NCBI GenBank assembly: GCA_007693595.1
Contig: REDI01000080.1
Coordinates: forward strand, 124,001 to 188,000
Length of the DNA: 64,000 bases
Reading direction: 5' to 3'
Source: Deltaproteobacteria bacterium
Lineage (GTDB): Bacteria > Myxococcota_A > UBA796 > GCA-2862545
In this document: piece by piece, positions 3,790 through 13,576 of the stretch
How positions within the stretch are numbered: the first letter of the stretch is position 1
Layout of the letters: every line of letters begins with the position of its first letter
Made by a program: the position numbers and the translations under genes
The notes under the pieces: generated by a model
The model's database searches: none
What the model was told of the DNA's origin: nothing
Seen by the model: only the letters and a program-made list of their open reading frames with translations

Positions 3790-4241
3790 AGCTCGCGCAC
3801 GAAGCCGACGTGGGGGGCGTTGGGAGCGACCATGACCGTGACCTGTTGCCCTATCTGGAGCCGTCGGGGTCCCCCGTGACGGACGGCGTTGCGTCGCTGG
3901 TAGGTCTCGCCTTCGAGCACGTATTCGACCCAGACCGCGCACATGGTCTGCTGCTCCTGGCACTGAACGACTTTGGCTTGCAAGGGGCGACCCTCCAAGA
4001 GCACGCGGCGGATCACCGAGATCCGCCACAGGAGCAGGGGTAGGGCGAGCGTCGACATCCCCAGCGCCAGCATCCAGAGGTTTGCTGAACCATAGCGATG
4101 GATCGCAGCCGCTTGGGCTCCGCCGAGTCGCCCCATCAGCTCGAAGAGGATCACGAAGCCCCAGATCCCCAGGCCCACCCGAGCGAGGGCCGAGGCGAGG
4201 AAGTCCCTCCAGAGGATGGTGCGGGAGGTGGGAGCGCTCAT
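3774..4241 (-). CDS. Small two-TM membrane protein, DUF3592-like
   Basis: A 155-residue protein with two hydrophobic segments (about 15-37 and 50-72), followed by a soluble C-terminal domain of about 80 residues rich in beta-strand pattern and Val/Gln. It has the size and layout of DUF3592-type proteins, which have no assigned role. Its ATG overlaps the nadK stop codon (ATGA, 4238-4241), so it is the last gene of the acyltransferase-dapF-nadK operon. Its 3' end overlaps the end of the facing MMPL gene, so nothing further is expected downstream on this strand. Confidence 0.7.
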   Translation of the reverse strand: MSAPTSRTILWRDFLASALARVGLGIWGFVILFELMGRLGGAQAAAIHRYGSANLWMLALGMSTLALPLLLWRISVIRRVLLEGRPLQAKVVQCQEQQTMCAVWVEYVLEGETYQRRNAVRHGGPRRLQIGQQVTVMVAPNAPHVGFVRELYEDS

Positions 4242-4984
4242 GGGTGGAGGATCTTGTGCATCATGCGGGCGGTGAAGTCGTGGTCGGCGAAGTAAGCAAG
4301 ACGCAGGTTCTTGGGGCCGTAGCCGATCGAGACGCTCGATACGGGTCCCGCGTCGCGGCCGTCGACCACGGCGCGAACCGGGCGACGCTCGGGGTGCTGG
4401 ACGTCCACCTGGATCTGAGCCGTGTGCGGCAGGGCAAAGGCGGAGAGTCTAGGAAGATGAGGGCAGATGGGTGTGATGGACAGCACTTTGAGGCTCGGGT
4501 GACAAGGCGGACCGCCCGCCGAGAAGTTGTAGGCGGTGCTGCCGAGCGCGGTCGAGACGACCACCCCGTCGGCGACGAGAGTGTCGACGACCTCGGTTCC
4601 ATCGACCGACAGCGAGAGTCGTGCGGTCTGGCCGCTGGCACGCTCGAGGTAGACATCGTTGACCGCATCGTGGACGCTGGCTTCGCCGCCTGGGCTATGG
4701 ACCTGAGCCCGGATCAGTGGGAACTCCCAAGTGATCAGGTCGTGGTGCAAGAGGGCTCGGGCCGCCTCGGCCCAGTCCGTCACGTCGTTGAGCAGAAAGC
4801 CGACCCGGCCTGCGTTGAGGCCGACGAAGGGTCGCTCCAGCCCTAGCTTGGCGACCGTGTGTAGCATGAAGCCGTCGCCGCCGACGACGACCGAGAACCG
4901 CTCGAGCTCGTCCCCTCCGAGGTGGGCGCGGAGGAGCTCCGCGTGTCGAACGGCGACGGGGTTGCGCGGATCGTGGACGATCAT
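4238..4984 (-). CDS. nadK: NAD kinase
   Basis: Phosphorylates NAD to NADP in the cytoplasm. The 248-residue protein has the GGDG motif at 35-38, the NxxxxGFL motif at 57-64, VNDVYLER at 108-115, and the DGxxxST-LGSTAYNFSAGG block at about 139-158 that binds NAD. It is shorter than the usual 280-300 residues because the N-terminal Rossmann start is brief. ATG at 4984 overlaps the stop of the preceding gene (ATGA), which supports this start. The frame stays open upstream to 5602, but that extension is antisense-like Arg/Pro-rich sequence and is not counted. Confidence 0.93.
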   Translation of the reverse strand: MIVHDPRNPVAVRHAELLRAHLGGDELERFSVVVGGDGFMLHTVAKLGLERPFVGLNAGRVGFLLNDVTDWAEAARALLHHDLITWEFPLIRAQVHSPGGEASVHDAVNDVYLERASGQTARLSLSVDGTEVVDTLVADGVVVSTALGSTAYNFSAGGPPCHPSLKVLSITPICPHLPRLSAFALPHTAQIQVDVQHPERRPVRAVVDGRDAGPVSSVSIGYGPKNLRLAYFADHDFTARMMHKILHP

Positions 4985-5724
4985 GGCTTGGCCTCGGGAG
5001 TGAGCAGGGCGAAGACCGCGCGGCCCAGGGAGAGGAGGCGCTCGGGATCTTCGGTGCCGTGGAGGGGGACCTGGACCGTGAGCACGACCAGGGCGTCTTT
5101 GAGCGTGAGAGCGTGCAGCTCCACGACCTGGGGCTGGCTGGGGTGCGGGATCCGCCAGCGAGTCCGCTCCCCTCGAAGGAGGCCGTGCCACAGAGCGCTC
5201 CGGTCTTCGAGGACCGCTCCCCGTGCCGACAGGTCGGAGAGGGCCTCGGCCAGCGCTTGGTTGGCGTTTGAGGTGAGATCGCGCGAGATCGAGATCGTGG
5301 TGTCGGGGCCGCGCCAGACCAGGGCCGCCTCGGTGGTTGTGGTCTCGCCTTGGGGGAGCTGGAGCTGCAGCCCGTCGTGGAGGTGCTCCCTCCACTCGGC
5401 GGTCGGAAAGACGTAGGCTTGTGTGCGAAAGACATGGACGGTCGGGGCTTCGTCTTCGGGGCGGTCGACCCGGAGGGCCGGGTATCCACGGGCGTCGTAG
5501 ACGTGGAGCTGCGCCCCGCCTTTTTGGAGGCGCTCCACGCACTGGGCGGCGATCCCATCGGGCCAGGTCAGGCAGGAGAAGCGGCCCCTCCGGTTGATCC
5601 ACATGGGGCGCGCGGGCGGCTCGTCGACCTTGTACCAGGTCCTCTCGGTGAGTGCCTGCTCCGACCGGGCCGGAGCGTCGGGTGGCCCCGCGAGGGCACT
5701 GAGCAGCAGCGCGAGAGAGAACAT
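4981..5724 (-). CDS. Secreted protein of unknown function upstream of nadK
   Basis: About 247 residues. The N-terminus (MFSLALLLSALAGPP) is a short signal peptide with likely cleavage after about residue 13-18. The mature part has two cysteines (WP-flanked), many Trp and charged residues and a mixed alpha/beta pattern. I do not recognise the family. The frame is open to 5814, but starting there would bury the signal peptide and overlap dapF, so ATG at 5724 is preferred. The stop overlaps the nadK start by 4 bases, so the two are translationally coupled. The gap from dapF is 53 bases. Confidence 0.65.
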   Translation of the reverse strand: MFSLALLLSALAGPPDAPARSEQALTERTWYKVDEPPARPMWINRRGRFSCLTWPDGIAAQCVERLQKGGAQLHVYDARGYPALRVDRPEDEAPTVHVFRTQAYVFPTAEWREHLHDGLQLQLPQGETTTTEAALVWRGPDTTISISRDLTSNANQALAEALSDLSARGAVLEDRSALWHGLLRGERTRWRIPHPSQPQVVELHALTLKDALVVLTVQVPLHGTEDPERLLSLGRAVFALLTPEAKP

Positions 5725-5777
5725 GAGCGCCTCGAAGTTTCGAACAAGGCCGGTGTATCGGTTATCGTCGCCGACGT

Positions 5778-6620
5778 CTACCCAGCGGCCCGCGCCGCTC
5801 GGCGGAGCAGCCATCGAGGATCCACCGCGAACTCACCTACGACCTCTACGGGCCCTTCCAGGACGAGATCGAGCGCTTCGGTGAGGGTGACGGTGAGCTC
5901 CCCGCCCGGCATCTGCACGGTGACTCGGCCCGGCGGGATCCGATGGGTCAGCATGGCAGCACACACCGCAGCGCAGGACGAGCTCCCCGAGGCAAGGGTC
6001 GGGCCGGCCCCGCGCTCCCAGATCCGGATCTCGAGGCGATCGGGTGCGAGGACCTTGACGAACTGAACATTGGCACGGTTCGGTACGCTCGCGTGGTTCT
6101 CGAGCAGGGGGCCCAACCGGCGCCAGTCCAGGGCGTCGAGGTCGCCGTCGACGAAGGTGACGAGGTGGGGGTTGCCGGTCGCGAGCGCGGTGATCTGCAG
6201 GGTCTGTCCCCCCACCTGCCAGGTCGCGTCGATCACTGGTTCTCGCGCGTGGACCGGCACCTGCGCAGGCTCGATCGTCGCCCGCCCCATGGCGATGGAG
6301 ATCCGGTCGCCCTGCACCGTACACCCCACGACCTCGGCGCCTGTATCGACGGAGAAGCGCTCGGGGGCCCCCAGGTGATCGACGAGGTAGCGAGCGAAGA
6401 TCCGAAGCCCGTTCCCAGACTTTTCGGCCACGGACCCATCGGGGTTCCAGATGGTGACCCCGTGGTCCGCCCGCCCGGTCGGGGTGGGTTCGAGCACGCC
6501 ATCGCCACCGACCCCACGGTGGCGGTCGCAGAGGGCCCGTACCAGCGCGGGGCTCGCGGGAGGCCCCTCGTGCAGCACGAGGTAGTCGTTGCCGAGCCCG
6601 TGGCTGCGGACCAGACGCAT
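5778..6620 (-). CDS. dapF: Diaminopimelate epimerase-like protein with both catalytic Cys replaced by Ser
   Basis: DapF interconverts LL- and meso-diaminopimelate for lysine and peptidoglycan synthesis using a pair of cysteines as acid and base. This 280-residue protein has the full DapF frame: HGLGNDYL at 7-14, WNPDGS at 58-63, GNPHLVTF at 149-156, and ERGAG at 202-206. At the two catalytic sites it reads KSGNG (Ser68) and LASGSSSC (Ser211), where classic enzymes have Cys (CGNG and ACGSG/ACGTG). Both codons are clear Ser codons (TCT, TCG). Either a DapF subgroup works with serine, or this protein acts on another substrate. It abuts the TPR protein gene (stop 6621, start 6620) in an operon with nadK. 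Confidence 0.8.
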   Translation of the reverse strand: MRLVRSHGLGNDYLVLHEGPPASPALVRALCDRHRGVGGDGVLEPTPTGRADHGVTIWNPDGSVAEKSGNGLRIFARYLVDHLGAPERFSVDTGAEVVGCTVQGDRISIAMGRATIEPAQVPVHAREPVIDATWQVGGQTLQITALATGNPHLVTFVDGDLDALDWRRLGPLLENHASVPNRANVQFVKVLAPDRLEIRIWERGAGPTLASGSSSCAAVCAAMLTHRIPPGRVTVQMPGGELTVTLTEALDLVLEGPVEVVGEFAVDPRWLLRRAARAAG

Positions 6621-7640
6621 TCAGCCGTCCTTGCTGCGGCGCATCCAGCCGAGCCAGCCCCCACCGTTGCTGGGCTTGGGCTCGACCTCGGGGACCAGGC
6701 GCTGAAGCGCGAGGCGGGCCTCGCGGTGAGAGGGGTCGAGCTCGAGGGTGACTCGGAGCCAGGCCTTCGCCTCTTCCCACTGGTGCAGCCGCGCTGCGAT
6801 CCGGGCGGTGAGCCACGCGATCCGCACGCTGCGCTTCTTGAACTTGCCCGCGCGCTGCACGGCGGCGACGGCCTGTTGGAGCTTGTCTTCGGACTCGTAG
6901 GTCTCGGCGATCAGGGCGACGACGTCGAGGGCCCGGTTGCGGTACTCTGGGCTCGAGAGCCCGTAGGAGGCGGCCTCGAGCGCGTCCTCACGCTCGTCGA
7001 AGTGGGCGAGGATCTCAGCGTAGTCCGTCCAGAGCCGGGTATTCTGAGGGTCGGTACTCAGCCCCAAGCGCAAGACGTCGAGGGTGCCGTCGAGGTTGCC
7101 CCGCGCCGCTTCGAGCCCAGCCGTGATCGAGAACACGCTCGCTGGCGCGCCGCGGTCGATCCAGTCTTTGGCCTCGACGAGGGCAGGCTCGATCAGACCT
7201 AAGCCTTCGAGGGCTTGCAGGCGGAGCTCTCGCGCTTCGATGGTGTCGCTACGGTAGGCGATCTGAGCGGTCGCAAGTTTGAAAGCGAGCACGAGTCGGC
7301 CGAGATCGCGGCAGGCCTTGGCAGCCTCGAGGTAGTCGCCGGTGGGATGGAGGCGCACCAGCCGCTTGTGGAGCTTCTTGGCGTCGGCGACGGAGAGGCC
7401 GCAGTCGTTGCACTTGGCGGCGGGGTCGGGGGGGCCACTGTACGGGACCCGGTCGAGGCGCCCCCCGCAGTTCGTACACCGCTCGGGTTGAGGAAGGTCG
7501 AGGCTAATCGCCCAGTCTTCGAGCTTGAGGGTGCGCCGGCAGCTCTTGCAGACCAGCGCGTCGGCGAAGCGTCCCACCACCTCGCGGGACTCCCAATGGG
7601 GGTCGGGCGCGTCGCAGCAGGGCTCGTCGGCGGAGCTCAA
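6621..7640 (-). CDS. Zinc-ribbon protein with TPR-like helical repeats
   Basis: About 339 residues. The first 90 hold a cluster of cysteines: CC near 8, then CxxC, CxxC and CxxC pairs between about 30 and 80, typical of tandem zinc ribbons. The rest is a helical repeat region with TPR character (about 95-310), ending in a Gly/Trp-rich basic tail. It probably serves as a protein-protein adaptor; no enzymatic motif is seen. TTG at 7640 is chosen because AGAGG lies 5 bases upstream and because an earlier start would overlap the acyltransferase gene, which ends at 7684. It directly abuts dapF. Confidence 0.65.
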   Translation of the reverse strand: MSSADEPCCDAPDPHWESREVVGRFADALVCKSCRRTLKLEDWAISLDLPQPERCTNCGGRLDRVPYSGPPDPAAKCNDCGLSVADAKKLHKRLVRLHPTGDYLEAAKACRDLGRLVLAFKLATAQIAYRSDTIEARELRLQALEGLGLIEPALVEAKDWIDRGAPASVFSITAGLEAARGNLDGTLDVLRLGLSTDPQNTRLWTDYAEILAHFDEREDALEAASYGLSSPEYRNRALDVVALIAETYESEDKLQQAVAAVQRAGKFKKRSVRIAWLTARIAARLHQWEEAKAWLRVTLELDPSHREARLALQRLVPEVEPKPSNGGGWLGWMRRSKDG

Positions 7641-7683
7641 CGGGACCTCTGGGCATGCAGCAGGTGGGGGATCGCGGAGGGAT

Positions 7684-8571
7684 TCATGAGGGTCGAAGCT
7701 CCGGGGGGAGAAGATCGGCGACGTATCGGTGGGCGAGCAGGAGGGTGTCCTTGGGCCCACCGTGCTCCGCAACGCGTAGAGGCTCTCCGATGCGAAGTGT
7801 AACGCCTCCGGGGCGCACATGGGTGTTGCCGAGGGGCATGATCGCTCGGGTTCCGATGAGGGCCGCGGGAAGGAGCTGGGCCCCTTCTAGCTTTAGGTAT
7901 CGCGCAACGCCTGGAATGAAGTCGCCAAGGCGACCCGTACGGCTTCGGGATCCCTCGGCGTAGATCAACACGGCTCGACCCTGGATGGCGGCGTCTTGGG
8001 CGACCTTGATGGCGGCGAGCGCGCGCCGAGCCAGCTCGCGCGGAGAGAGTTGGGCGGTGTGGGAGAGCTGCGTGGACTGCGGGACGGGGACGGTCGCCAG
8101 ACAAGCGGAGGCGAAGCGCCGGAAGAGGTCCTCATAGACCTTGGGTCCGGCGAGGGAGATCACGCGATCGCCCAGCTCGGGGTGGCCTCCTTGGTCGAGC
8201 ACGCTGTCGATGGCGGTGCTGTCGAAGTAGGAGTGGTGGTTGCACACGATAAACGTGGGGCCTTGCTGCAGGGCCCTCTCGAGGTGCTCGGCGCCCGAGA
8301 GGCTCGTGCGGGGAAGCACGTGTCGGCACCAGGCGCGCGAGATGCGACGGGCCTGGGGGTGGGGGGGGTACAGCCGGATTTCGTCGCCCATGGTTTGGAG
8401 CGTCTCGAGCAGCTCTTCGGCGGTCTGGGGGGACCACGTCGAGACGATCTGCTGGACGGCTCGACCCGCGACCGGCCCGACGACGGGGTCGTCGATGTAA
8501 GAAGCAAGAAACCCGGGCAGCAGCTCCATCAGGGTGGCCGGCTTCAGTCGCGCTAATGAGGTCAGATCCAC
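7684..8571 (-). CDS. PlsC-family acyltransferase
   Basis: Lysophospholipid (1-acylglycerol-3-phosphate-type) acyltransferase at the membrane. Motif I NHHSYFDS (the HX4D catalytic pair) and motif III YAEGSRSRTG, which binds the phosphate of the acceptor, are both visible, spaced about 120 residues apart as in PlsC. The N-terminal 80 residues are an extra helical segment not needed for the fold. GTG at 8571 has GGAG 5 bases upstream; a GTG at 8601 is also in frame but has no ribosome-binding site. First gene of the operon that runs through dapF and nadK. The acceptor lipid cannot be told from sequence. Confidence 0.85.
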   Translation of the reverse strand: MDLTSLARLKPATLMELLPGFLASYIDDPVVGPVAGRAVQQIVSTWSPQTAEELLETLQTMGDEIRLYPPHPQARRISRAWCRHVLPRTSLSGAEHLERALQQGPTFIVCNHHSYFDSTAIDSVLDQGGHPELGDRVISLAGPKVYEDLFRRFASACLATVPVPQSTQLSHTAQLSPRELARRALAAIKVAQDAAIQGRAVLIYAEGSRSRTGRLGDFIPGVARYLKLEGAQLLPAALIGTRAIMPLGNTHVRPGGVTLRIGEPLRVAEHGGPKDTLLLAHRYVADLLPPELRPS

Positions 8572-10264: not shown

Positions 10265-11116
10265 ATGTCACCCCAGATCAAGACCGTCACCTTCATCGGA
10301 GGCGGTAACATGGCGACAGCCATGGTCGAAGGCCTTGAGAGCCTCGACGAACCTCCGTCTATCACCCTCTGCGACCCCTCCGAGGCCGCCCGACAGCGAC
10401 ACCGTCGGGCCGGGCGTCGGACCGTCGCAGGACCCGCGCAGCTCGACCGACCTCGGGTGATCGTGCTCGCCTTCAAGCCTCAACACCTCGCCGCTGCGGC
10501 GCCCGATCTCGACGCTTGCCTGCCCGATGATGCCTTGGTCGTCTCGGTGCTCGCCGGGGTCTCGACGCAGACGTTGCACGCCTGCTTCCCCCGCGCGCGG
10601 GTGGTGCGCGTCATGCCGAACACCCCGATGGCGATCGGGCAGGGCATGGCGGGAGTGGCCGCTGGCGACCGCGCGACCCCGCACGATGTCGAGACCGCGG
10701 CGGCCCTCTGCCGTCCTTCGGGCGAGGTGCTCATCGTCCCCGAAGCGCGCCTCGATGCCATCACCGCCGTCTCCGGGAGTGGACCGGCCTACTTCTTCCG
10801 CTTCTGCGAGGTCCTCGTGCGCGCCGCGCGCGAAGAGCTCGACTTCAGCGACGCCGAGGCTCGGCTGCTCGTCTCGCAGACGGCCAAGGGCGCCATCGCC
10901 TACCTCGACTCCGAAGAGGGCTTCCCCGCGCAACGCCTTCGCTCCGAGGTCACCAGCCCCGGCGGCACCACCGAAGCCGCGCTTCGGGTCTTCGACCAAG
11001 GTGGCATCGCGGAGCTGGCAGAGAACGCCTTGCGCGCCGCCGCCCACCGGGCTCGCGAGCTCGACGCGGCGGCCTCCGCTCGCATGCAGCGCCTCGACCG
11101 AGGGAGGGTCGCATGA
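10265..11116 (+). CDS. proC: Pyrroline-5-carboxylate reductase
   Basis: Last step of proline synthesis: reduces pyrroline-5-carboxylate to proline with NAD(P)H. The 283-residue protein starts with the dinucleotide-binding FIGGGNMA motif (10-17). It carries the VMPNTP segment in the middle, SGSGPAYFF near residues 171-179, and the C-terminal TSPGGTT signature of the family. The length is normal. Its TGA overlaps the proB ATG by 4 bases, and it heads a complete proC-proB-proA operon. The 183 bases upstream (10082-10264) hold no clear promoter motif. Confidence 0.95.
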   Translation: MSPQIKTVTFIGGGNMATAMVEGLESLDEPPSITLCDPSEAARQRHRRAGRRTVAGPAQLDRPRVIVLAFKPQHLAAAAPDLDACLPDDALVVSVLAGVSTQTLHACFPRARVVRVMPNTPMAIGQGMAGVAAGDRATPHDVETAAALCRPSGEVLIVPEARLDAITAVSGSGPAYFFRFCEVLVRAAREELDFSDAEARLLVSQTAKGAIAYLDSEEGFPAQRLRSEVTSPGGTTEAALRVFDQGGIAELAENALRAAAHRARELDAAASARMQRLDRGRVA

Positions 11117-12282
11117 TAGCGCCAGCACTGATCGACGCGGTCCCTGCCGAGATCCCCTCCACCTTCTCCCCCGAGCACCCCGTGAGAGCTGCGCTGCGCG
11201 ATGCGCGCCGGATCGTGATCAAGGTCGGAACGGGCATCGTCACCGAGCACGGAGGGCGTCCTTGCATGCGGCGACTGCGGCAGCTCACGGCCGCGGCCGC
11301 GGCCTTGCGCGCCGAAGGGCGTGAGGTCGTCCTCGTCAGCTCGGGATCGGTCGGCGTAGGCACCGACGCCCTGGGCCTTCGGCGACCGCTTTCGGTGGTC
11401 GATCGCCAGGCGGCAGCGGCGGCGGGACAGAGCCTGCTCATGGGCGCGTACCTGCGTCTCTTCGGGGCGCTCGGCCAGCGCTGCGCCCAGGTCCTCCTCT
11501 CCGAGGAGGACTTCTCGAACCGCGGGAGGCATGTGCACCTCAACGCGACCCTCAACCGTCTGCTCGATCTCGGCGTCATCCCCGTGGTCAACGAGAACGA
11601 TGCCGTCACGACCGCCACCATGGCGACCGAGGGCGGGGTGGTCTTCTCTGACAACGATCGTCTCGCGGCGCTGACGGCCTCAGCGCTGACGGCGGACGCG
11701 CTCCTGCTCCTCACCGATGTTGAGGGCGTCCTCTCGGCGCCTCCTGGCACGCCGGGCTCTTCGCGCCTGCCTATCTACACCGGCGACGAAGAGATCCGTA
11801 TCGGCACCGCCTCCAGCCTGGGTCGTGGCGGGATCGCCGCCAAGATCCAGGCGGCGGTCCTCGGCGCTCGCGCCGGCGTTCACGTCGTCATTGGATCGGG
11901 CGAGCGTATCGACACGATCTCAGAGGTCCTCTCAGGGCAGGACGTCGGCACGTGGTTCCCCGCCGAGAAGGCTCCTTCGGGCAAGCGGCGCTGGCTTGCA
12001 TGGGCGACCGCCCCCGAGGGGCGGCTGGTCGTCAACGAGGGCGCGAGGCGAGCCCTGGTCGAGCGGCGTGCCAGCCTGCTCCGGCCAGGGATCATCGAGG
12101 TCGAGGGCTACTTTGACGGCGGGGTCGTCGTCAGTCTGGTCGACGAGAACGGCGTGGAGTTCGGCCGGGGTCGGTGCGACGTGCCTGCCTCGCACATCAT
12201 GGAGCCCACCGTCGATCGTGCGCCGCCGATCGTGCACGCCGACCACCTGGTGATCTTCTCGGAAGGGGGCGTGGATGACTGA
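11113..12282 (+). CDS. proB: Glutamate 5-kinase with PUA domain
   Basis: First step of proline synthesis: phosphorylates glutamate to gamma-glutamyl phosphate. 389 residues. The amino-acid kinase domain fills about 25-285 (IKVGTGIVT near 37-45, SSGSVGVG near 76-83, NENDAV near 160). A PUA domain follows at about 300-380, as in the longer bacterial ProB proteins. The first 25 residues are extra; a later start within the frame is possible. It is coupled to proC (ATGA) and overlaps proA by 8 bases. Feedback inhibition by proline is known for the family; nothing in the sequence shows whether it applies here. Confidence 0.95.
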   Translation: MIAPALIDAVPAEIPSTFSPEHPVRAALRDARRIVIKVGTGIVTEHGGRPCMRRLRQLTAAAAALRAEGREVVLVSSGSVGVGTDALGLRRPLSVVDRQAAAAAGQSLLMGAYLRLFGALGQRCAQVLLSEEDFSNRGRHVHLNATLNRLLDLGVIPVVNENDAVTTATMATEGGVVFSDNDRLAALTASALTADALLLLTDVEGVLSAPPGTPGSSRLPIYTGDEEIRIGTASSLGRGGIAAKIQAAVLGARAGVHVVIGSGERIDTISEVLSGQDVGTWFPAEKAPSGKRRWLAWATAPEGRLVVNEGARRALVERRASLLRPGIIEVEGYFDGGVVVSLVDENGVEFGRGRCDVPASHIMEPTVDRAPPIVHADHLVIFSEGGVDD

Positions 12283-13576
12283 GTCCGCCGATCCCAGATC
12301 GCTCGCGCTGGCGGCACGGCGAGGGGCGCGATCCCTCGCAGCGCTCAGCTCCGAGGCGCGAGCGTCCGCGCTCCGACGGGTGGCGGACGCACTCGTCGCG
12401 CGCTCGTCCGAGATCTGCGAGGCCAACGCCCTCGACGTGGCGGACGGGGAGCGGGCGGTCGCCGCCGGTTCCTTGGCCCCGGCCCTGCTCGCCAGACTTC
12501 GGATCGATGAGGCCCGCCTTCGCTCGCTGGCGGAGGGGATCCGCACCCTCGCGGACATGCCTGAGCCGGTGGGTCGCACCGTGGCGCGGCGAGCGCTCGG
12601 AGAGGGCCTCGAGCTCCGCCAGGTGACCTCGCCCCTCGGGGTGTTGCTCATCATCTTCGAGGCCCGCCCCGACGCGCTGCCGCAGATCGCCTCGCTCGCG
12701 CTGCGTGCTTGCGATGGGGTGATCCTCAAGGGAGGCCGCGAGGCCCAGCGCAGCAACACGGCCATCCACCGGGTCATCACCGAGGCCCTGGCCCCCGACG
12801 TACCTCCGCAGACCGTCGGGCTGGTCCACACGCGCGCCGACATCGCCGAGCTGCTGGCCCTCGATGAGGTCATCGATCTGGTGATCCCGCGGGGCTCCAA
12901 CGCCTTGGTCCGCCACATCCAAGAAAATACCCGCATTCCCGTGCTGGGTCACGCCGACGGGGTCTGCCATATCTACGTCGACGAGCACGCCGATCTAGCG
13001 CGTGCCAAGAGGGTCGTGCTCGACGCCAAGACCGACTACCCCTCCGCCTGCAACGCCGTCGAGACGTTGCTCGTCCACCGCTCCCTGCACCGCGATGGGC
13101 GGCTCGGCGAGCTCCTCTCCGCGCTTGGGGGGATCCGGCTGCACGCGTCCCCCGATCAGGCGGAGCTCCTGGGGCTGCCCCCGGCGCCGGACCTTCACCA
13201 CGAGTGGGGGGATCTGGATCTGACGGTGGTGCTGGTCGAGGATCTCGAGGCGGCGATCGATCACATCCACGCCCATGGCAGCGGTCACACCGAGTCGATC
13301 CTGACCGAGAACACCGACCGTGCAGAGGCCTTCTTGCGCCGGGTCGACAGCGCGGCGGTCTTTCACAACGTGAGCACCCGCTTCGCGGACGGATACCGCT
13401 TCGGCTTGGGGGCCGAGGTCGGCGTGAGCACCTCGCGTCTTCATGCGCGTGGGCCTGTGGGGGTCGAGGGGCTGCTCACGACCCGCTGGATCCTCCGAGG
13501 TGGGGGTCATACCGTGCAAGACGTTCGGTCTGGGGCGTGGTCCTTCGCCTGGAAGGAGCTCCCGCTGGGCGGCTGA
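12275..13576 (+). CDS. proA: Gamma-glutamyl phosphate reductase
   Basis: Second step of proline synthesis: NADPH-dependent reduction of gamma-glutamyl phosphate to glutamate semialdehyde. 433 residues with the aldehyde-dehydrogenase-like fold. IFEARPDALPQIASL and KGGREA lie in the first half, and the catalytic cysteine is in the YPSACNAVETLL segment (about residue 258). The C-terminal third has the expected HGSGHTE and GLGAEVGVS motifs. It ends 3 bases from the stop of the facing fpr gene. With proB and proC it gives a full proline pathway in 3.3 kb. Confidence 0.95.
   Translation: MTESADPRSLALAARRGARSLAALSSEARASALRRVADALVARSSEICEANALDVADGERAVAAGSLAPALLARLRIDEARLRSLAEGIRTLADMPEPVGRTVARRALGEGLELRQVTSPLGVLLIIFEARPDALPQIASLALRACDGVILKGGREAQRSNTAIHRVITEALAPDVPPQTVGLVHTRADIAELLALDEVIDLVIPRGSNALVRHIQENTRIPVLGHADGVCHIYVDEHADLARAKRVVLDAKTDYPSACNAVETLLVHRSLHRDGRLGELLSALGGIRLHASPDQAELLGLPPAPDLHHEWGDLDLTVVLVEDLEAAIDHIHAHGSGHTESILTENTDRAEAFLRRVDSAAVFHNVSTRFADGYRFGLGAEVGVSTSRLHARGPVGVEGLLTTRWILRGGGHTVQDVRSGAWSFAWKELPLGG

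Follow-up and report, generated by a model that had tools for sequence, protein, structure and literature searches.

Whether diaminopimelate (DAP) epimerase, an enzyme essential for the cell wall, can work with serine at both of its catalytic cysteine positions is the question raised by a gene in the window, the whole 64,000-nucleotide stretch of contig REDI01000080.1 that was analysed. The gene lies on the minus strand at 5778..6620 and encodes a 280-residue homologue of DapF (P0001), recognised from its open reading frame, from NCBIfam and Pfam profiles and from an AlphaFold2 model. The accepted mechanism of this enzyme class is described as resting on a thiol–thiolate pair (PMC12039745). 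The catalytic Cys/Cys pair of the canonical two-thiol DAP epimerase is absent here. The first position is Ser68 (codon TCT, 6417..6419, minus strand), within AEKSGNGLRIF, and the second is Ser211 (codon TCG, 5988..5990, minus strand), within GPTLASGSSSC. A first-pass annotation of this DNA had already reported serine at both positions; its reading frame, strand and coordinates are exact, and both residues are found in the translation. The protein scores 204.4 bits with the NCBIfam equivalog model for DapF, TIGR00652 (cut-off 114.65), and 151.4 bits with PF01678 (cut-off 34.7), which matches two stretches. The model for the bifunctional DapF/glutamate racemase, NF038284, gives only 72.1 bits against a cut-off of 350, and PF05544 of the proline racemase superfamily does not match the protein, for which PF01678 is the sole Pfam match at E 0.001. 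The protein is therefore a member of the DapF homologous family that lacks the catalytic cysteines, and it is not filed as a canonical thiol DAP epimerase.

Apart from these two residues, the protein closely resembles characterised DapF enzymes (TIGR00652, PF01678; 9mro, 3ejx and 1gqz), sharing their fold, length, six DAP contacts and placement of the catalytic pair at helix starts. The model (pLDDT 96.9, pTM 0.93) has the two-domain DapF fold, and its best structural match is the DAP epimerase 9mro (Z 37.5, rmsd 1.7, 265 residues, 36% identity), compared with Z scores of about 23–27 for proline racemase family entries. Each serine directly precedes a helix (69–83 and 212–224, respectively), as the cysteines do in DapF. 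The substrate site is likewise kept, as the first-pass annotation had proposed from its motifs. Asn11, Asn59, Asn150, Asn184, Glu202 and Arg203, whose counterparts bind DAP analogues in the Anabaena and Haemophilus influenzae enzymes (PMC12039745, PMC8225329; numbering against the solved structures was matched in this analysis), are present in all 53 genomes of the bacterium's order in which a DapF was found. The same six residues occur in 47 of 47 Ser/Ser alignment rows (28 from the order and 19 scattered, with L214 dropped). By sequence, the protein thus has the four asparagines and the Glu-Arg pair that contact both ends of DAP.

The serines are a fixed property of the order. A DapF match was obtained in 53 of the 58 order genomes searched, with one TIGR00652 gene in each and 31 genera represented, and every one of the 53 is Ser/Ser at the two catalytic positions, both of which could be read throughout; the count leaves out three duplicate rows, the duplicate locus L033 (CAJXRZ010000152.1, agreeing with order member G028 in place and length) and the outside locus L035. 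No Cys-containing DapF was found in the 58 genomes. No DapF at all was found in five of them (G011, G029, G032, G036 and G054), two of which (G011 and G054) are at least 90% complete and yet have DapB and LysA over cut-off. Sequencing or assembly error at both codons is ruled out by the agreement of the 53 genomes. The first-pass annotation had foreseen that its reading might fail through such an error or through cysteines in close relatives, and the alignment of relatives that it called for shows neither. Its statement that no other dapF is in view holds for the complete set of contigs (4.92 Mb, 98.4% complete), where PF01678 finds one gene with two domains and no second gene, and hence no Cys-type dapF of the kind it had suggested seeking. 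PF05544 has no match anywhere in that genome.

Codon usage at the two positions was also examined. Among 71 distinct Ser/Ser genes, Ser68 is encoded by AGY in 36 and TCN in 35, and Ser211 by AGY in 30 and TCN in 41; these genes were chosen by their Ser/Ser motif, and the counts are uninformative on other residues at those sites. On a tree of 47 rows, at least seven switches between the codon sets occurred at Ser68 and at least seven at Ser211. However, control serines switch 6 times (Ser63) or 14 times each (Ser213 and Ser214), so that codon-set switching is not special to the catalytic serines and was rejected as a sign of selection.

In phylogenetic trees, the Ser/Ser proteins are separate from Cys/Cys DapF. 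Both trees were quick, with SH-aLRT support only and several long branches. In the first, from which the motif columns, the duplicate L033 and the partial genes L221 and L222 were left out, the 59 Ser/Ser rows (53 from the order and 6 others) fall together with one long row, L036, at a support of 87, and the Ser/Ser rows alone are not separated from this Ser/Cys sequence. In the second, 47 Ser/Ser rows group at 86, or at 83 with L036 added, and divide into an order part (28 rows, support 95) and a scattered set (19 rows, support 99). A Ser-type DapF subgroup, one of two options that the first-pass annotation had left open, therefore exists, fixed in the order and joined in its clade by genes from outside. 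Compared with 86 Cys rows, all 59 Ser/Ser rows share Tyr13, Leu14, Pro60, Ser68, Ile74, Gln186, Ala205, Ser211 and Ser214, and 55 of the 59 have Lys67; at least one row added later (L280) has a residue other than Ala205. In this comparison of 59 Ser/Ser with 86 Cys rows, the changes most typical of the clade are Ser214 for Gly, Lys67 for Met, Ile74 for Cys and Gln186 for Glu. In the later row set, position 67 is Lys in 42 of 47 Ser/Ser rows and in none of 40 Cys rows, 39 of which have Met, and the other five Ser/Ser rows have Thr, Arg or Ile.

A search of the phylum found DapF in 109 of 112 genomes, 91 of the 112 lying outside the order, and the 94 loci read outside the order comprise 86 Cys/Cys genes, seven Ser/Ser genes and one that ends before the second position. 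Members of the Ser/Ser clade occur in 5 of the 91 genomes. Three of these (G133, G079 and G098) have a Cys/Cys gene beside the Ser/Ser gene, and in two (G114 and G091) only the Ser/Ser DapF was found. Two further Ser/Ser genes, L214 and L217 (genomes G062 and G105), group among the Cys rows in genomes that also have a Cys/Cys gene, and they look like separate paralogues.

Ser/Ser genes are also found in what is likely another phylum. The locus L035, from an unclassified metagenome-assembled genome (MAG; G149), encodes a Ser/Ser protein, and its genome has no other DapF match. Of 198 genomes searched from the group around G149, 145 have a DapF match, and the motif was read in 37 loci, a minority of those 145: 14 are Ser/Ser (G149 included), 20 are Cys/Cys and 3 are Cys/Ser. 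A second DapF gene accompanies the Ser/Ser gene in 7 of the 14 genomes; six of these second genes are Cys/Cys and one is Cys/Ser. Genomes of this group with a Ser/Ser gene alone provide weak evidence, because the assemblies may be incomplete; G235 has no second dapF, whereas G168, with a nearly identical Ser/Ser protein, has one. Mixed pairs occur as well. The three Cys/Ser genes, which keep the first cysteine (L265 and L269 in G253 and G199, where they are the only DapF match, and L285 in G168), form their own clade among the Cys rows of the second tree, separate from the Ser/Ser clade, and L036:5995-6849, which has no companion DapF match in its Actinomycetota MAG, is Ser/Cys, with the first cysteine replaced. 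The single DapF match of an Acetobacteraceae strain (L034) is Cys/Cys. From the mixed forms and the separate clades it follows that replacement of the catalytic cysteines took place on more than one occasion, sometimes at one position and sometimes at both.

The pathway encoded in the order calls for an epimerase. In the window's genome, dapA and dapB are over cut-off, and dapB is over cut-off in 54 of 58 order genomes. The bacterium's own genome (C27) also encodes a 952-residue fusion of aspartate kinase and DAP decarboxylase (lysC-lysA; L220:2678-5533, 1217.7 bits against a cut-off of 802). LysA is over cut-off in 21 of the 58 order genomes, in every case in an open frame of 843–1110 residues, which suggests the same fusion. 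DAP decarboxylase acts on the meso isomer. MurE is over cut-off in 27 of 29 order genomes, and all 27, as well as the window's own, carry DNPR, the motif that presumably marks a DAP-adding MurE; bacteria that use LL-DAP also have a DNPR-type MurE, so the motif is not proof of the meso isomer. Known routes around DapF appear closed. DAP dehydrogenase, which makes meso-DAP directly, is over cut-off in none of the 58 order genomes (weak fragments occur in three), and proline racemase is found in none of the 58; both the dehydrogenase bypass and a substitute from the proline racemase family were rejected on these searches. The search for an enzyme that makes LL-DAP covered DapL (TIGR03540), which as a source of LL-DAP has no match over cut-off among 29 order genomes. 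Weaker aminotransferase matches to the DapL model, up to 273.8 bits, occur in all 29, and the window's genome encodes, close to dapB, an aminotransferase that does not fall clearly under either DapL or DapC. With dapA, dapB, the fusion and a DAP-type MurE present, and DAP dehydrogenase and proline racemase missing, an LL-to-meso-DAP epimerase should therefore be needed. As a separate observation, DapB in G023, G027, G037, G042, G048 and others, from several families of the order, aligns to its profile in disconnected segments only, leaving positions 1 to about 70 and about 180–205 uncovered, as in a shortened or divergent DapB.

The dap cluster itself offers a clue to how the two-cysteine gene may have disappeared. 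In G060 and G065, which represent two sister families within the class, one genome each, and are the only genomes sampled from its other families, a porin-like gene is followed by a Cys/Cys dapF, dapA and dapB, in that order. In the order, the porin-like gene stands directly before dapA in 13 of 21 dap loci (the window's own and 12 of 20 chosen); in the other 8, no dapA or no porin was seen next to dapB. The profile search that finds dapF in both sister loci finds it in none of the 21, and the order's Ser/Ser dapF lies away from the cluster, usually near nadK. The simplest account is that, once the Ser/Ser gene had taken over, the Cys dapF disappeared from the dap cluster, although a gain of dapF in the sister clusters, in place of a loss in the order, could also have occurred. 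In three loci (L291, L298 and L306, from G013, G014 and G006), unlike most of the order loci examined, the porin-like gene comes just before dapB and no dapA match separates the two.

Around the gene itself, the minus strand reads plsC-like gene, TPR protein, dapF, a 277-residue protein, nadK and a DUF3592-like protein (below cut-off). The TPR-repeat protein, immediately upstream of dapF (6621..7820, minus strand; PF13428 26.3 bits, over cut-off), has relatives near dapF in 6 of 29 order loci. The 277-residue protein (4981..5814, minus strand) has an uncertain start, the listed one overlapping dapF; neither NCBIfam nor Pfam gives it a match at E 0.001, and relatives occur in 5 of the 29 loci. 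The NAD kinase gene (4238..4999, minus strand, 4999 being an approximate start) is over the cut-off of PF20143 at 71.1 bits, and its best NCBIfam NAD kinase model gives 152.5 bits, below the cut-off of 211. The first-pass annotation had placed dapF in an operon with nadK. This is close to correct: nadK is on the same strand but two genes downstream, with the 277-residue protein between. Within 1.5-kb flanks, nadK accompanies dapF in 24 of the 29 order loci read, in either relative orientation (25 of 30 if the duplicate L033 is included). An ordinary proline biosynthesis cluster, with proC, proB and proA in a row, lies at 10265-13576 of the window. Outside the order, the Ser/Ser dapF of L035 is followed by genes for alanine racemase, an M20 protein, an M55 D-aminopeptidase and an S66 LD-carboxypeptidase, and a peptide-type transporter is encoded on the opposite strand. 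The Ser/Ser dapF of L228 (G098) has a YkuD L,D-transpeptidase gene as its divergent neighbour. Both settings fit DAP-containing wall peptides; by eye, no wall-peptide link was seen in the remaining loci read.

Enzymes of the same fold bear on whether two serines could do the chemistry. The O-ureidoserine racemase 7vdy (Z 35.9, 34% identity to the model), whose substrate differs as judged by its title, presumably has Cys/Cys as its catalytic residues. The histidine racemases CntK (6jiw, Z 25.5) and HisR (9cr6, Z 23.1) are more distant structural matches, and HisR uses Cys67 and Cys209, unlike Ser68 and Ser211 here (PMC11602996). Changing cysteine in such enzymes is costly: C67S and C209S of HisR have greatly reduced activity and far slower turnover (PMC11602996), single Cys-to-Ser changes in PddB leave <0.1% of activity (PMC8225329), and a Cys-to-Ala change almost abolishes that of Corynebacterium glutamicum DapF (PMC5296763). 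Entries 4lb0 and 4k7g, from A. vitis and the proline racemase superfamily, have the common fold (Z 25.4 and 26.3, respectively) but belong to another family (18% and 14% identity to the 280-residue protein). Some members of that superfamily lack one or both cysteines (PMC4113996, PMC4364671): one enzyme of this fold, a 4-hydroxyproline epimerase, naturally uses a Ser and a Cys (PMC4113996), and another, carrying Ser/Thr, is a trans-3-hydroxyproline dehydratase (PMC4113996, PMC4364671). The excerpts of these two papers describe no Ser/Ser pair in the superfamily. In another racemase family, an aspartate/glutamate racemase with Thr for one Cys is reported to work in one direction only (PMC8142540). 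Since natural Ser/Cys and Thr-containing enzymes work, a lineage that retains Ser/Ser within conserved surroundings of its own may have evolved what a point mutant lacks. Searches of the open-licence PMC literature turned up no title or abstract describing a Ser/Ser DapF.

A working mechanism can be proposed along these lines. DAP would occupy the usual DapF cleft so that the carbon which reacts is flanked by Ser68 and Ser211, both of them at a helix start. One serine would take the alpha proton and the other would return one from the opposite face. The reacting serine may be activated by the helix dipole and by the polar neighbours Ser213, Ser214 and, in most members, Lys67. A possible benefit of losing the thiols would be insensitivity to the active-site disulfide reported for Cys DapF (PMC5296763).

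On balance, the Ser/Ser clade protein is probably the working DAP epimerase of this bacterium and its order, predicted to convert LL- to meso-DAP and to have replaced the two-cysteine DapF. The fuller picture, in which a cofactor-free epimerase acts through two serine hydroxyls, serving, after displacement of the Cys enzyme, as the only DAP epimerase of the order and elsewhere as a second form beside a Cys-containing DapF, is one on which judgement is evenly poised. DAP epimerisation by the subgroup is favoured because of the genomic need and the kept DAP contacts, and disfavoured because Cys DapF coexists with it elsewhere and Cys-to-Ser mutants are weak. The lack of a DapL over cut-off, the LysA count of 21 in 58 and the five order genomes without a DapF match also count against it. 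The coexistence and the weak mutants feed the main rival: that the protein's ligand is DAP or a similar diamino acid but its reaction is another one, such as dehydration, elimination or racemisation of another amino acid, as the first-pass annotation had allowed, while an unrecognised enzyme makes meso-DAP in the order. A paralogue with another task would fit the 3 of 5 and 7 of 14 Ser/Ser genomes outside the order that keep a Cys-containing DapF; the nearly inactive laboratory mutants (PMC11602996, PMC8225329) and the Ser/Thr dehydratase in a superfamily with Cys-less members (PMC4113996, PMC4364671) point the same way. Against this reading, the bacterium has no other PF01678 gene, the 58 order genomes show no proline racemase match and no DAP dehydrogenase over cut-off, and 53 genomes from 31 genera each have the Ser/Ser gene as their sole DapF match. 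The contacts to either end of DAP analogues are also kept, and a changed reaction is considered rather unlikely.

It is more doubtful still that the order dispenses with epimerisation, its MurE using LL-DAP directly and the Ser/Ser protein being a leftover or a binding protein. Such a scheme would accommodate the ambiguity of the DNPR motif, the 37 of 58 genomes in which LysA is not over cut-off and the 5 of 58 with no DapF match, but it is at odds with the meso-acting decarboxylase fusion of the window's genome and with serines and contacts kept in 53 of 53 order genomes, unlike a decaying gene. Least probable of all is catalysis by a residue other than the two serines, for example Lys67 beside Ser68. 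Although this lysine is frequent in the clade and absent from the Cys rows, it is not essential to the clade because five of the 47 Ser/Ser rows do without it.

If the Ser/Ser protein is the sole epimerase of the order, a natural lineage would show the same chemistry carried out by the DapF fold without thiols, and the clade-typical residues Ser214, Gln186, Ile74 and, in most members, Lys67 indicate where to look for it. The finding also carries a warning for annotation, as a curated model names these proteins DapF well above its cut-off despite their different catalytic residues. DapF inhibitors designed to react with cysteine would be expected to miss organisms with the Ser/Ser form. More broadly, a Ser/Ser version as the apparent sole form in a whole bacterial group calls into question how the DAP epimerase reaction must work.
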